From assembly GCA_029263175.1 (NCBI GenBank), contig JAJCXZ010000049.1, forward strand, positions 62,001-126,000: a DNA stretch of 64,000 nucleotides, given 5' to 3'. The notes under the pieces are model-generated. The model searched no databases. It saw only the letters and a list, made by a program, of their open reading frames with translations, and was not told the origin of the DNA. This DNA is from Acidimicrobiales bacterium. GTDB taxonomy: Bacteria; Actinomycetota; Acidimicrobiia; Acidimicrobiales; Aldehydirespiratoraceae. Each line of letters starts with the position of its first letter. Position 1 is the stretch's first letter. The position numbers and the translations under genes were made by a program. Of the stretch, positions 10,826-62,226 are shown in pieces.

Positions 10826-10889
10826 TGCTCAATCCATCGGCAGAGAACGCGGCGGATATGAGGTGTGTTCTGCTCCGGCCGGGGGTGGT

Positions 10890-10895
10890 TTGACA
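10890..10895 (+). promoter_or_regulatory. TTGACA box 35 nt upstream of an acyl-CoA dehydrogenase
   Basis: A perfect TTGACA followed by CCCG starts exactly 35 nt before the ATG at 10925. The paralogous dehydrogenase at 56093 has TTGACATCCG at the same distance. It may be a -35 box (no clear -10 is visible) or a regulator half-site. A GGAG lies 8-9 nt before the ATG here. Confidence 0.35.
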
Positions 10896-10924
10896 CCCGC
10901 CGTTGGCGGATGGAGAGTGCAGCC

Positions 10925-12181
10925 ATGGACCTGACCTACCCGCCGGAAGCCGACACGTTCCGGGAGAAAGTGCGGGCGTTCCTCGACGAACACCTACCGG
11001 CGAACTGGATCGGTGTGGGTGCGTTGGCACCCGATGATCGCCAGGCCTTCGTGGCGCAATGGCGAGCAACATTGGCCGATGCCAGACTTCTCGCCCCGCA
11101 CTGGCCGGTCGAGTACGACGGCTCCGGTCTCACGCATCTCGAACACGTCGTGCTCAACGAGGAGTTCATCAAGCGGGGTGTGCCGTCGATGGGCGCCAAT
11201 GATGGTTTCAGCATCAGCATGGTCGGCAACACGATCGTGCACTGGGGAACCGATGAGCAAAAGAAGCACTATCTCCCCCGGATCCTCGATGGCACGGATG
11301 TCTGGTGCCAGGGCTACAGCGAGCCGAATGCCGGTTCAGACCTCGCCAACCTCGGACTCCGGGCGGTGCGCGACGGCGACGAATGGGTCATCAATGGTCA
11401 GAAGACATGGACGTCGGAGGCCACGACCGCCAACATGATCTTTGCGTTGTGCCGCACCGATCCGGATGTGCCGAAGCACAAGGGCATTTCCTTCCTTCTC
11501 GTGTCGATGGACCAGCCCGGCGTCGAGGTTCGACCGATCCTCGACATGGGCGGCCACGCCCACGTGAACGAGGTGTTCTTCGAAGACGCCCGTTCGCCGG
11601 TGGAGAGTGTGCTGGGTGAGACGAACGGCGGGTGGGCGGTGGCCAACACCCTCCTCGGCTTCGAGCGAGGCGTACGCGGCACCGTGCTGTGGCAGCCGTT
11701 CCGCGAGGAGCTCGACAACTTCATCGAGCTCGCCCGTGAGCGCGGGAAGCTCGACGACCCCATCGTGCGCCAGGAGATCGCCAGGTTCCACACCAACGTC
11801 GAGGTCATGCGGTTCCTGGGCTATCAGACGCTCACCAAGCTCCTCACCGGTGCTCCTCCGGGGCCGGAGTCCTCGGTGACCAAGTTGTGGTGGAGCCAGC
11901 ACCATCGTGAGATCACCGAAGCCGCGCTCCGTCTGGTTGGTCCCGCTGGTCAGGTCGACTACGGCGAAGACACGCGCACTGGCATCGGTGCGTCAGCCCC
12001 GGGGACACCAAACACGGTTGCCAATTGGATAAACAGCTTCTTTGTCGCTCGCGCCGGCACGATCTACGCCGGCAGCACGGAAGTGCAAAAGAGCATCCTC
12101 GGCGAGCGGATGCTCGGACTACCCAAGGAGCCCCGATCCGACTCCGGCTCATGGCGCGAGACGCAGACGAGCCAGAGTTGA
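10925..12181 (+). CDS. Acyl-CoA dehydrogenase (FadE-type)
   Basis: 418 residues with the complete acyl-CoA dehydrogenase fold. The N-terminal helical domain is followed by the FAD/substrate segment WCQGYSEPNAGSDLANL, then INGQKTWTSEA, and a C-terminal AGTIYAGSTEVQKSILGER segment. Such enzymes form the alpha,beta-double bond of acyl-CoAs using FAD. It is strikingly similar to the dehydrogenase at 56093, including EFIKRGVPSMGANDGFSIS versus EFAKRGVPTSGINDGFSIG. The two are paralogues. ATG 10925 is chosen over an upstream in-frame ATG at 10910 because GGAGAG sits between them. It ends 2 bp before the convergent CoA ligase. Confidence 0.9.
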   Translation: MDLTYPPEADTFREKVRAFLDEHLPANWIGVGALAPDDRQAFVAQWRATLADARLLAPHWPVEYDGSGLTHLEHVVLNEEFIKRGVPSMGANDGFSISMVGNTIVHWGTDEQKKHYLPRILDGTDVWCQGYSEPNAGSDLANLGLRAVRDGDEWVINGQKTWTSEATTANMIFALCRTDPDVPKHKGISFLLVSMDQPGVEVRPILDMGGHAHVNEVFFEDARSPVESVLGETNGGWAVANTLLGFERGVRGTVLWQPFREELDNFIELARERGKLDDPIVRQEIARFHTNVEVMRFLGYQTLTKLLTGAPPGPESSVTKLWWSQHHREITEAALRLVGPAGQVDYGEDTRTGIGASAPGTPNTVANWINSFFVARAGTIYAGSTEVQKSILGERMLGLPKEPRSDSGSWRETQTSQS

Positions 12182-12183
12182 CG

Positions 12184-13719
12184 TCAGTTCCAGTACGGCG
12201 CGCGTAGGTCCGCCTTACGGAGCTTTCCGGTTGGAAGGCGGGGAAGCGCATCCGAGAAGTCCACCGACCGGGGGCACTTGAAGCTCGACAGCCGGTCCCG
12301 GCTGAACGAGATGATGTCAGCGGCGAGGTCATCCGATGGTTCGAAGCCGGGTTGCAGCTCGACCGCCGCCTTGACTTCTTCGCCGAGATCCGGGTGCGGG
12401 ATTCCGAACACTGCGGCATCGAGAATCGCGGGGTGGGCGATGAGCACGTCCTCGGTCTCGCGGGGATAGATGTTGATCCCGCCGGAAATGATCATGAACG
12501 ACTTGCGGTCGGTGAGGAAGAGGTAACCGTCTTCATCGACATGGCCCACGTCGCCGTATGTGGCGTAGCCCTGCGGTGACATCGCCCCGGCCGTCTTCTC
12601 CGCGTCACCCTTGTACTCGAACGTGGTGATCGGATTGAAGTGGATCAGCCCGGACTCGCCCGGCGGGAGCTCGTTGTTGTCCTCATCGAGAATGAAGATG
12701 ACAGCCGGGTCCGCTCTCCCCACCGAGCCCGGATGCGCCAGCCACTCCTCGGGCCCGATTGCGGTGCGGCCAAAGCCTTCACTCCCGGCGTAGTACTCGT
12801 AGAGGATCGGCCCCCACCAGTCCATCATCTCGTGTTTGACGGCCGGCGGGCATGGAGCCGCCGCGTGGATGGCGACTCTGTGTGAAGAGAGGTCGTATGC
12901 CGACTTCACGTCCTGGGGGAGGTGGAGTAGACGGATGAACATGGTCGGCACCCACTGGCTGTGGGTGATCTGGAAGCGTTCGATTGCCGCGAGCGCCGTC
13001 GTCGGTTGAAAACGATCGAGCACGACCACCGTGCCGCCGAACATCTGAATCCGCAGGCCGTAGGCCAGGGGCGCAGCGTGATAGAGCGGGGCAGGGGAGA
13101 GGTAGACCGTCTCCTCATCGAACCCCCAGACATTGCGCTTCTCGATGAGCGACTCGCCCGGCGGCATCTTCCAGGTCGGCACCGCGGCGAGCTCCCGGAG
13201 CACTCCCTTCGGCCGACCGGTTGTGCCCGACGAGTAGAACATGATCGAGCCTTCGGACTCGTCGTCGAGAGGTGTGGCCGGCTGGCCGGCCACAAGAGTG
13301 TCGTAGTCCTCCCAGCCGCTGGACATCGCGTCGTCGGTGACTCCGTCCATCATCAACCGGCGCCTGATCAGCGGTGCGTTGATCGGCACGGAGTGTTCGG
13401 CCACCCCGGCGCTGCTGATCAACACACGGGCACCACAGTCTTCGACGATGTATGCGGCTTCGTCGATGGTCAGGTGCCAGTTGATCGGGGTGACGTACAG
13501 GCCTGACCGCATTGCAGCCCATACGACCTCGTAGTAGTGCCGGTGGTTCTCGAGCAGAACGGCGATGCCGTCACCGCGCCGTAAGCCGGTCTCGCGGAGG
13601 AGGTGAGCGAGTCGGTTGGAGCCGGCATCGAGCTCCGCGTGGGTGATGACCGCACCGGACTCGGCCATCACGACAGCGGCCTCGTTCGGGCGTAGCGCGC
13701 CCCACTTGCCTGGATACAT
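12184..13719 (-). CDS. AMP-dependent acyl-CoA synthetase (ANL superfamily)
   Basis: 511 residues. Adenylation motifs are visible: MFYSSGTTGRPKGV (P-loop), YEYYAGSEG, YATYGDVGHVDEDGYLFLTD and the C-terminal catalytic-lysine segment LPTGKLRKADLR. It activates a carboxylic acid to its CoA thioester through an acyl-AMP. The start ATG at 13719 is 22 bp downstream of the selenoprotein stop, so the two form one operon read from the selenoprotein promoter. The open frame extends much further upstream, but that part is an out-of-frame shadow of the selenoprotein gene. Confidence 0.9.
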   Translation of the reverse strand: MYPGKWGALRPNEAAVVMAESGAVITHAELDAGSNRLAHLLRETGLRRGDGIAVLLENHRHYYEVVWAAMRSGLYVTPINWHLTIDEAAYIVEDCGARVLISSAGVAEHSVPINAPLIRRRLMMDGVTDDAMSSGWEDYDTLVAGQPATPLDDESEGSIMFYSSGTTGRPKGVLRELAAVPTWKMPPGESLIEKRNVWGFDEETVYLSPAPLYHAAPLAYGLRIQMFGGTVVVLDRFQPTTALAAIERFQITHSQWVPTMFIRLLHLPQDVKSAYDLSSHRVAIHAAAPCPPAVKHEMMDWWGPILYEYYAGSEGFGRTAIGPEEWLAHPGSVGRADPAVIFILDEDNNELPPGESGLIHFNPITTFEYKGDAEKTAGAMSPQGYATYGDVGHVDEDGYLFLTDRKSFMIISGGINIYPRETEDVLIAHPAILDAAVFGIPHPDLGEEVKAAVELQPGFEPSDDLAADIISFSRDRLSSFKCPRSVDFSDALPRLPTGKLRKADLRAPYWN

Positions 13720-13741: not shown

Positions 13742-14650
13742 CTAGTCGGCTCGAGCGCGCCCGTCGGTCTTTGCTGCCTGCTGTTCTGCCCTTCGTGTCG
13801 CCCCGGCGGCCGCGAGTTCGACTCGGTTCGTGTCATCCACGACCATGTAGTTGGCGCGCCACTCGTCGCTGCCCCAGCCGTAAGGGGCCTGGACGGTCGA
13901 GCGCGGAGCGTGGGCCCGCTCGAGGACATCGAGCGCGAGCGAACAGAGTTCCTGCTGCATGCCGAGGTCGCCGGGCTTCCCCATGGGGTTGCCGAGCGGG
14001 AAATCGACGAAAAGGAACCGGGGAACGCCGGCCTCTTCCACGATGTCACGGGCGGAGCCGACGACAATCGTAGCGATTCCGTTGGCTTCGAGATGGCGGG
14101 CGACCAGTCCGACCGACTGGTGACAGACCGGTCAAAGGGGGATGAGAATGACGGCGTCGACGCCGTCCCCGCGCGCCATCTCGAGCACGGCCGGCGCGTC
14201 GACCTCGCGGGTGCGGCGCTGGCTGTAGTCGGTGGGAACGCCATAGATTCGCGGAGAGACGGAGCCGATTCGCCCGGTCTCGGCTGCCGCCATGAGTTGG
14301 GCGATCGGGAGGAACGAGCCGAGATCGTCTGTGTGAGTCGCGTCCTTGTCCCATGACAGGTCCTCGGTGAACATTCGATCAGGGAGGTCGGCGACCGGCA
14401 GCGCGTAGGGCGCCTTGACCCTTCCGCCTGCCCACACATGGGGGCGATCGTCGAAGTACGGGAACGTCGTGGTGACGATGCCGACCCGGGTCTGCCCTAG
14501 AGGCTTCGACAACGGGGTGAAGGGTGTCTCGTCGTTGTGGGCCCAGCGATACGGGGCTCCGTAGCCGTGGGCGGCGTAGTACTCCCGACTCTTGTCGATA
14601 TAGCTGACATGGGACCGGTGAGCGATCCCCCTCTTCACGTTCTCGCTCAT
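13742..14650 (-). CDS. Selenoprotein: GrdB/PrdB-like family protein with in-frame UGA (Sec173)
   Basis: 302 residues if the in-frame TGA at 14132-14134 is read as selenocysteine. The part before (172 aa, ending AVILIPL) and the part after (PVCHQSVGLVARHLE...) are in the same frame with no intervening start needed. Together they resemble the glycine/sarcosine/betaine/D-proline reductase selenoprotein B family: the junction LIPL-U-PVCHQSVGL, then the VPRFLFVDFPLGNPMGKPGD block. Sec173 and Cys176 make a UxxC redox pair. A SECIS-type hairpin follows the UGA. Classic members reduce amino-acid C-N bonds in anaerobes; the substrate here is unknown, and the downstream CoA ligase hints at a carboxylic acid product. 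ATG 14650 is supported by TAAGGT 6 nt upstream. Confidence 0.85.
14103..14121 (-). promoter_or_regulatory. Bacterial SECIS hairpin downstream of the UGA codon
   Basis: On the mRNA (minus) strand, ACCAGUC pairs perfectly with GACUGGU around the loop GGUCG. Counting from the base after UGA, the stem starts at nucleotide 11 and the loop at 18. Bacterial SECIS elements need an apical loop with a leading G (often GGU) about 16-37 nt after UGA. From memory, the E. coli fdhF element has a similar spacing and a GGUC loop. The hairpin is inside coding sequence, as expected for SelB recruitment. Confidence 0.8.
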
Positions 14651-60596: not shown

Positions 60597-62226
60597 CCGA
60601 TCTGAACCTCGCTTCCGTCTGGGAGTTCGTCGCCGATGACTACGGTGACCGATTGGCGCTGTGGCATGGCGACACCAAACGCACCTGGTCGGAGTTCGAG
60701 TCGCGGGCATCGCTGCTGGCCGGAGCGCTCGCCGAGGTCGGAGTCGGGCTGGGCGACAATGTTGCTCGCTCTACAACGGCAACGAGTATCTCGAGGCCGA
60801 GTTCGCCGCCATGAAGGTTCGCGCCGCACCTTGCAATGTCAATTACCGGTACGTCGAGAATGAGCTCGCCTACCTGATCGACAACTGCGATGCGAAGGCC
60901 GTCTTCTTCGACCACGAGCTCGCAGATCGCTTCGACGCTGTGCACAGCGACCTCCGCAAGGTGAACCTCTGGGTCCACGTCGGTGACGGTCCTTGTCCTG
61001 ATTGGGCGGTTGGCCACGAGCAGCTGATCGAGTCGTCGTCGCCCGCGCCGCGGATCGAGCGCAGCAGCGATGATCTGTGGATCCTGTACACGGGCGGCAC
61101 TACCGGGAACCCCAAGGGTGTCATGTGGTCCCACGGCAACATCGCCGCCCTCATCGAACGCATTCTGGGCAATCTCGGTGTGGAGATCCCGACCACTCTT
61201 GCGGGTATCGCGCCGATGCTCGCCGCGATTGACGCTGCCGGCGCCGTGCCGCGCCAGTTGGCCGCCGCTCCGTTGATGCATGGCACCTCCGGGCTCGGTG
61301 CGCTGATCAATCTCTTCATCGGTGGGTCGGTGATCACGCTGACCGACCGGCACTTCAGCCCCGTCGAGCTCTGGGAGACCGTCGAGCGTACCCAGGCGAC
61401 CCTGGTCACCATCGTGGGCGATGTGTTCTGCGCGCCGATGGTCGATGCGCTCGATGACGCGGTAGCGGCGGGACGGCCGTTCGATCTTCGCTCGCTGGTG
61501 ACGATCGGGTCCTCGGGCGTGATGTGGAGCGAGTCGGTCAAGGACCGCCTCCTCGCCCATGCCCGGGCATCAGGGTCCAGCATGTTCTGCAACGACGGCC
61601 TCGGCGCGAGCGAAGGTGTCGGTTTCGCATCCAAGGCCTCAGTCGGCGATGGCGACACCGCAACCGCCACGTTCACTCTCGGCGAGAACGCCGCAGTGTT
61701 CACCGAGGACGGTCGGCGGGTCGAACCCGGATCGGAGGAGGCCGGGCTTCTGGCGGTCACCGGTCCGATACCGCTCGGCTACTACGGCGATCCTGTGAAA
61801 TCGGCCGAGACGTTCCGAGAATTCGAAGGTAAGCGCTGGTCGGTCCCTGGCGACTGGGCCACCTTGGCTGCCGATGGCACGGTCACGCTGCTCGGGCGCG
61901 GATCGGTGTCGATCAACACCGGAGGAGAGAAGGTCTATCCCGAAGAGGTCGAGGAGGCGCTGAAGCTCCTGCCCGGGGTGGTCGACGCAAACGTCGTCGG
62001 TGTGCCCGACCAGAGATGGGGGTCGGCGGTCACCGCCGTTGTTCAGCTCGCGGCTGGGGCCGAGCTCGGAGACCAAGAGATGATCGACAGCCTCCGCACG
62101 GCGCTGTCCGGCTACAAACTGCCGAAGAACATCGTGAGGGTCGACACGGTCTTCCGCGGCCCCAACGGCAAAGCCGACTACAAGTGGGCGACGGCAACTG
62201 CGCTGGAGGCGCTGGCTCTGGCGTGA
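60593..62226 (+). pseudogene. Tandem acyl-CoA synthetase paralogue with a frameshift near its start
   Basis: The first 58 codons (MTDLNLASVWEFVADD ... GLGDNVA, to about 60766) are in one frame, and the rest (LYNGNEYLEAEFAAMK ... GKADYKWA) is in another. Together they match the 546-residue ligase just upstream over their whole length. The paralogue has NVALALYNGNEY here, so 1 base (or 4) is missing between 60761 and 60771. No slippery sequence is present. It is either a recent inactivating mutation or a sequencing/assembly error. The downstream part keeps LWILYTGGTTGNPKGVMWSH and the catalytic lysine. Confidence 0.8.

Follow-up and report, generated by a model that had tools for sequence, protein, structure and literature searches.

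A PrdB-like selenoprotein gene and its relatives in Acidimicrobiia

The window analysed here is a stretch of 64,000 nt from an Acidimicrobiales bacterium (assembly GCA_029263175.1, contig JAJCXZ010000049.1, forward-strand positions 62,001 to 126,000), and it holds a reading frame that is interrupted by a single TGA. The original prediction took the two pieces for one selenoprotein of the GrdB/PrdB-like family, which raises two questions: is the UGA read as selenocysteine (Sec), and what would a relative of anaerobic amino acid reductases do in this organism? The features of the gene are as follows.

13742..14650, minus strand: gene for the PrdB-like selenoprotein of 302 aa, with Sec at residue 173; coordinates include the stop codon
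14132..14134, minus strand: in-frame UGA, predicted selenocysteine 173; TGA in the Sec homologues, TGC or TGT in two Cys orthologues
14123..14125, minus strand: codon of Cys176, which closes the UxxC motif and is invariant across 45 homologues
14104..14120, minus strand: bacterial SECIS-type hairpin, CCAGUC-GGUCG-GACUGG, with the loop beginning 17 nt past the UGA

Decoding of the in-frame UGA

Read on the minus strand from 14650 to 13742 with TGA as U, the gene encodes 302 residues, has a single internal UGA, at residue 173 (LIPL-U-PVCHQSVGL), and ends at the stop codon at 13744-13742; the strand had been left unstated, and the plus-strand reading of 13742..14650 is not the PrdB-like protein. 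As had been foreseen, open reading frame calling that ignores Sec splits the gene into pieces of 172 aa (14132-14650) and 99 aa (13742-14041), the latter beginning at an internal GTG well within the region downstream of the UGA. Annotation pipelines ignorant of this family will cut such genes in two.

The source genome (4.4 Mb, 97% complete, 111 contigs) was examined for selA, selB, selC (tRNA-Sec) and selD, and all four were present. The tRNA-Sec scored above the Rfam gathering score and has a TCA anticodon, SelA (386 bits) and SelB (278 bits) adjoin on one contig, and SelD was matched with 355 bits. The SelD of this genome is a selenoprotein too, with an in-frame UGA in GAGUGCKL (L037, G000:C3:15979-16917).

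Homologues were sought in 84,980 species genomes, and 20 were fetched (46-79% identity); their hosts are Acidimicrobiia, other Actinomycetota, Alpha-, Gamma- and 'Deltaproteobacteria' and Anaerolinea. TGA is kept at the Sec codon in all 20 loci and, among the matches listed, in nearly all family matches across the class. Two Cys orthologues were found in the class, with TGC (L054) or TGT (L055) at the Sec codon and 56-57% identity, and in the tree they branch within the Sec forms, which is what a change from Sec to Cys would produce. The dN/dS ratio was 0.11-0.16 downstream of the UGA in three comparisons and 0.11-0.23 upstream; by this measure, purifying selection acts alike on both regions. 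The retained TGA and this selection go far beyond what chance would give.

We also looked at the hairpin that follows the UGA. It forms in a 61-nt fold (-20.8 kcal/mol, z -1.9) but loses to another pairing when 54 nt are folded, and the folding energy of the single sequence is only modest evidence. The comparative support is strong. Among 24 distinct Sec sequences, pairing holds in 94.4% of the stem cells, four of the six pairs show changes on both sides, and the covariation score is 0.388 vs 0.133 in shuffles, with 0/500 shuffles reaching 0.388. Shifting the stem along the alignment made the pairing signal collapse. The third loop position is U in 24/24 sequences and the second is G in nearly all. 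Distant paralogues have stems that are quite different in sequence (GCGCAC/GUGUGC and GCGUAC/GUACGC in L041 and L042), and the stem is damaged in both Cys orthologues.

Because four independent lines (the Sec machinery, the conservation of UGA or Cys, the covarying hairpin and the purifying selection) converge, we conclude that the gene is almost certainly an intact selenoprotein gene, with UGA173 decoded by the organism's own SelA, SelB, SelD and tRNA-Sec via the downstream SECIS hairpin. That the UGA is instead a true stop, with the gene a pseudogene, the product of a sequencing error or the source of a deliberately truncated 172-aa protein, fits the two in-frame pieces obtained when Sec decoding is omitted but is extremely improbable against the UGA in 20/20 homologues, the covarying hairpin, the low downstream dN/dS and the full Sec machinery. 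The selenoprotein claim of the original prediction is thereby upheld, and nothing that it had named as contrary evidence turned up: homologues have Sec or Cys aligned at position 173, selB and tRNA-Sec are present, and the downstream frame is conserved.

Family membership, Sec-site motif and predicted fold

The best match among curated families was PrdB, a D-proline reductase subunit (TIGR04483; E 2.8e-23, residues 44-259, nearly the full model), although the score of 82.6 bits is below the curated cut-off of 300, so that the protein falls outside the equivalog. NCBIfam models of the GrdB type matched weakly, in the C-terminal half of the protein, and a Pfam search of the 302-aa protein matched no family, PF07355 included. 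True GrdB proteins of other Actinomycetota, located via their PF09338 neighbours, align with the family profile (A3) with E values down to 1.6e-25, and the Sec of the PrdB-like protein is aligned with their UGA-encoded Sec. By sequence homology the protein thus belongs to the PrdB/GrdB homology group (superfamily), with Sec at the same place, as first proposed. With PrdB it shares homology over residues 44-259 and a Sec in a UxxC motif, but it differs in lying far under the equivalog cut-off and in a host genome without PrdA. With GrdB (TIGR01917/TIGR01918, PF07355) it shares a homologous C-terminal domain, but GrdB is longer and adjoins a GrdE-like PF09338 gene, whereas no such partner adjoins the PrdB-like protein.

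The Sec-site motifs also differ. The original prediction had regarded PVCHQ as a conserved stretch of GrdB, and this has to be corrected: the PrdB-like protein has UPVCHQ, while GrdB of other Actinomycetota has UGTxTRC. Across 45 homologues, U173, P174 and C176 are invariant and V175, H177 and Q178 nearly so; three paralogues in the source genome (L041-L043) have UP[FLA]CTR. The database searches and alignments that had been suggested for the recombined protein recovered both Sec and Cys forms at position 173. In several Actinomycetota, two genomes of the class among them, genuine GrdB-like selenoproteins (L082-L095, STUGTxTRC) are encoded beside GrdE-like genes of PF09338. The UGSC-containing marine selenoproteins, another abundant UxxC family (PMC2398784), are named here as a parallel, but the PrdB-like protein matches no NCBIfam model of that kind.

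An AlphaFold2 model built from 45 family sequences (pLDDT 90.3, pTM 0.89) predicts a PrdB-like fold with a Rossmann-type domain, in which Sec173 lies between a strand (166-170) and a helix (174-189), at the start of the helix, with Cys176 three residues on. Such a position, from strand to helix start, is typical for a reactive selenol or thiol. Sequence searches of the PDB gave no homologue, and structure searches gave only generic, uninformative Rossmann-like matches (best Foldseek E 2.5e-3, TM 0.28; VIA structure match Z 8.5, rmsd 6.8 over 151 residues).

Gene neighbourhood and possible function

Three neighbouring genes in the window bear on a possible link to acyl-CoA metabolism.

12184..13719, minus strand: AMP-binding acyl-CoA ligase, 22 nt downstream of the PrdB-like gene; same arrangement in L008
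14715..16295, plus strand: AMP-binding acyl-CoA ligase, divergent neighbour, putative link only
10865..12181, plus strand: acyl-CoA dehydrogenase, neighbour, putative link only

The PrdB-like gene and the downstream ligase are probably co-transcribed. When the neighbourhoods of 20 homologue loci and eight larger regions were compared, this context was common only to the nearest relatives (L008 and L019), other copies adjoin unrelated genes, and no conserved neighbour pointing to a reaction was seen in that set. The pairing with a CoA ligase that had been noted earlier is therefore real here, given the 22-nt gap, but conserved in the nearest relatives only, and the linkage is weak. Acyl-CoA enzymes also lie near some other copies (a thiolase at L040, an acyl-CoA dehydrogenase at L041 and a thioesterase at L042), but these genomes are rich in genes of this sort. 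In an Ilumatobacter genome, a proline racemase family gene (L016 4896-5966) is directly upstream of the PrdB-like gene; a link to D-proline was considered on this ground and set aside, the racemase being absent near other copies.

D-proline and glycine reductases work with a pyruvoyl subunit. Neither PrdA (TIGR04480) nor any member of the PrdA/GrdE family (PF09338) was matched in the source genome, an absence that is not absolute given an assembly 97% complete in 111 contigs. The PF09338 search was sensitive, as the same search matched 15/396 Actinomycetota genomes, two of them in the Acidimicrobiia class. Among the family-bearing genomes listed, PF09338 was also absent from G027, G002, G031, G043, G071 and G075. 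Because the PF09338 partner is absent from the genome and the motif is UPVCHQ instead of UGTxTRC, the protein is very probably not a subunit of D-proline or glycine reductase, and the pyruvoyl-dependent mechanism known from D-proline reductase is very unlikely to operate in this genome.

The explanation that we favour, with some reserve, is a stand-alone selenol/thiol (UxxC) reductase of a small molecule, Sec-decoded and with no pyruvoyl step. The protein would work alone, with Sec173 and Cys176 as a plausible redox pair: the selenolate of Sec173 would attack its substrate, either a small electrophilic molecule or an activated S, N or C-heteroatom bond; the adduct or selenenyl intermediate would be resolved by Cys176 as a Se-S bond, which thioredoxin or another cellular dithiol would then reduce. 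Because the pyruvoyl partner is absent, there would be no Schiff-base step as in D-proline and glycine reductase.

It is also conceivable, if rather less likely, that the protein is an antioxidant or thiol-disulfide oxidoreductase acting through its selenol or thiol on peroxides or protein disulfides and not on a metabolite. The UxxC motif, the Sec at a helix start and the aerobic host would suit such a role, and a marine survey groups PrdB with thiol-dependent redox selenoproteins (PMC1088965). However, no thioredoxin- or peroxiredoxin-type family was matched by sequence, no fold of either type stood out among the generic, uninformative structure matches, and the nearly invariant D109, S143 and R145 away from the motif, together with its neighbours H177 and Q178, hint at a dedicated pocket. 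Still further from the stand-alone reductase is a role as B subunit in a genuine D-proline or glycine/sarcosine/betaine reductase, together with a pyruvoyl subunit (PrdA/GrdE); the PrdB match across almost the entire model, the Sec aligned with that of GrdB and the racemase upstream in L016 speak for it, but we hold it to be very unlikely in view of the PrdB score far under the cut-off, a genome without PrdA or PF09338 under a search that finds the latter in other Actinomycetota, a motif that is not that of GrdB, and a racemase that is not found near other family copies.

Occurrence in Acidimicrobiia and in surface seawater

The source genome has five members of the family with one UGA each. 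The four others, on contigs C111, C102, C45 and C50 (L040, L041, L042 and L043 of G000), have a UPxC motif, and three of these four have long C-terminal extensions. The presence of several paralogues in one genome suggests that they may serve different substrates in aerobic catabolism. Across the class, the family was matched in 127/395 genomes, though a few of the weakest matches (e.g. G022) may be true GrdB. The host genome also has four haem-copper oxidase subunit I genes, which indicate that the organism can respire oxygen. The original prediction had called such a protein unusual for an apparently aerobic actinobacterium, which is not what we find, given the matches across the class, the five copies here and how abundant the family is in oxygenated surface seawater (PMC1088965, PMC2398784).

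The surveys of marine selenoproteins report the same name in large numbers. In the Sargasso Sea (2005), 42 PrdB Sec genes with UXXC made up the third most abundant selenoprotein family (PMC1088965), and the GOS survey counted 235 Sec and 110 Cys forms of PrdB (PMC2398784); Zhang et al. 2006 also listed 'proline reductase' selenoproteins in Anaeromyxobacter and Geobacter (PMC1794560). Compared by description, the 'PrdB' counted in the Sargasso Sea and by GOS is most likely of the same kind as the protein here. PrdB-type selenoproteins are thus among the most abundant in surface seawater, yet they are labelled with an anaerobic Stickland function, a label that is very unlikely to hold in this genome, given the lack of a pyruvoyl partner and a motif unlike that of GrdB. 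The literature searched yielded no paper on selenoproteins of Acidimicrobiia, and, as far as it shows, three points are new here: the lack of a partner, the departure from the GrdB motif and the expansion of paralogues in Acidimicrobiia. A broader and more tentative possibility is that these proteins form a new class of oxygen-tolerant, stand-alone selenocysteine reductases, which might have arisen from a Stickland-type B subunit by loss of the pyruvoyl partner and radiated into substrate-specific paralogues in the aerobic catabolism of Acidimicrobiia.

SelA was matched in 259/395 genomes of the class, comprising 113/127 family-bearing and 146/268 other genomes (Fisher p 1.7e-12, with shared ancestry ignored). 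Fourteen of the 127 family-bearing genomes had no SelA match; in two of these (G158 and G194) the family matches lack the UGA, and the other 12, most of them incomplete, have UGA forms. Streamlined genomes of ~1 Mb (genus g89, family f34) often keep SelA, and none of them is among the PrdB-like matches. In four family matches (G317:C80, G232:C184, G152:C41 and G046:C18), we observed two in-frame TGAs, which may reflect a second Sec or a frame extended past a TGA stop.
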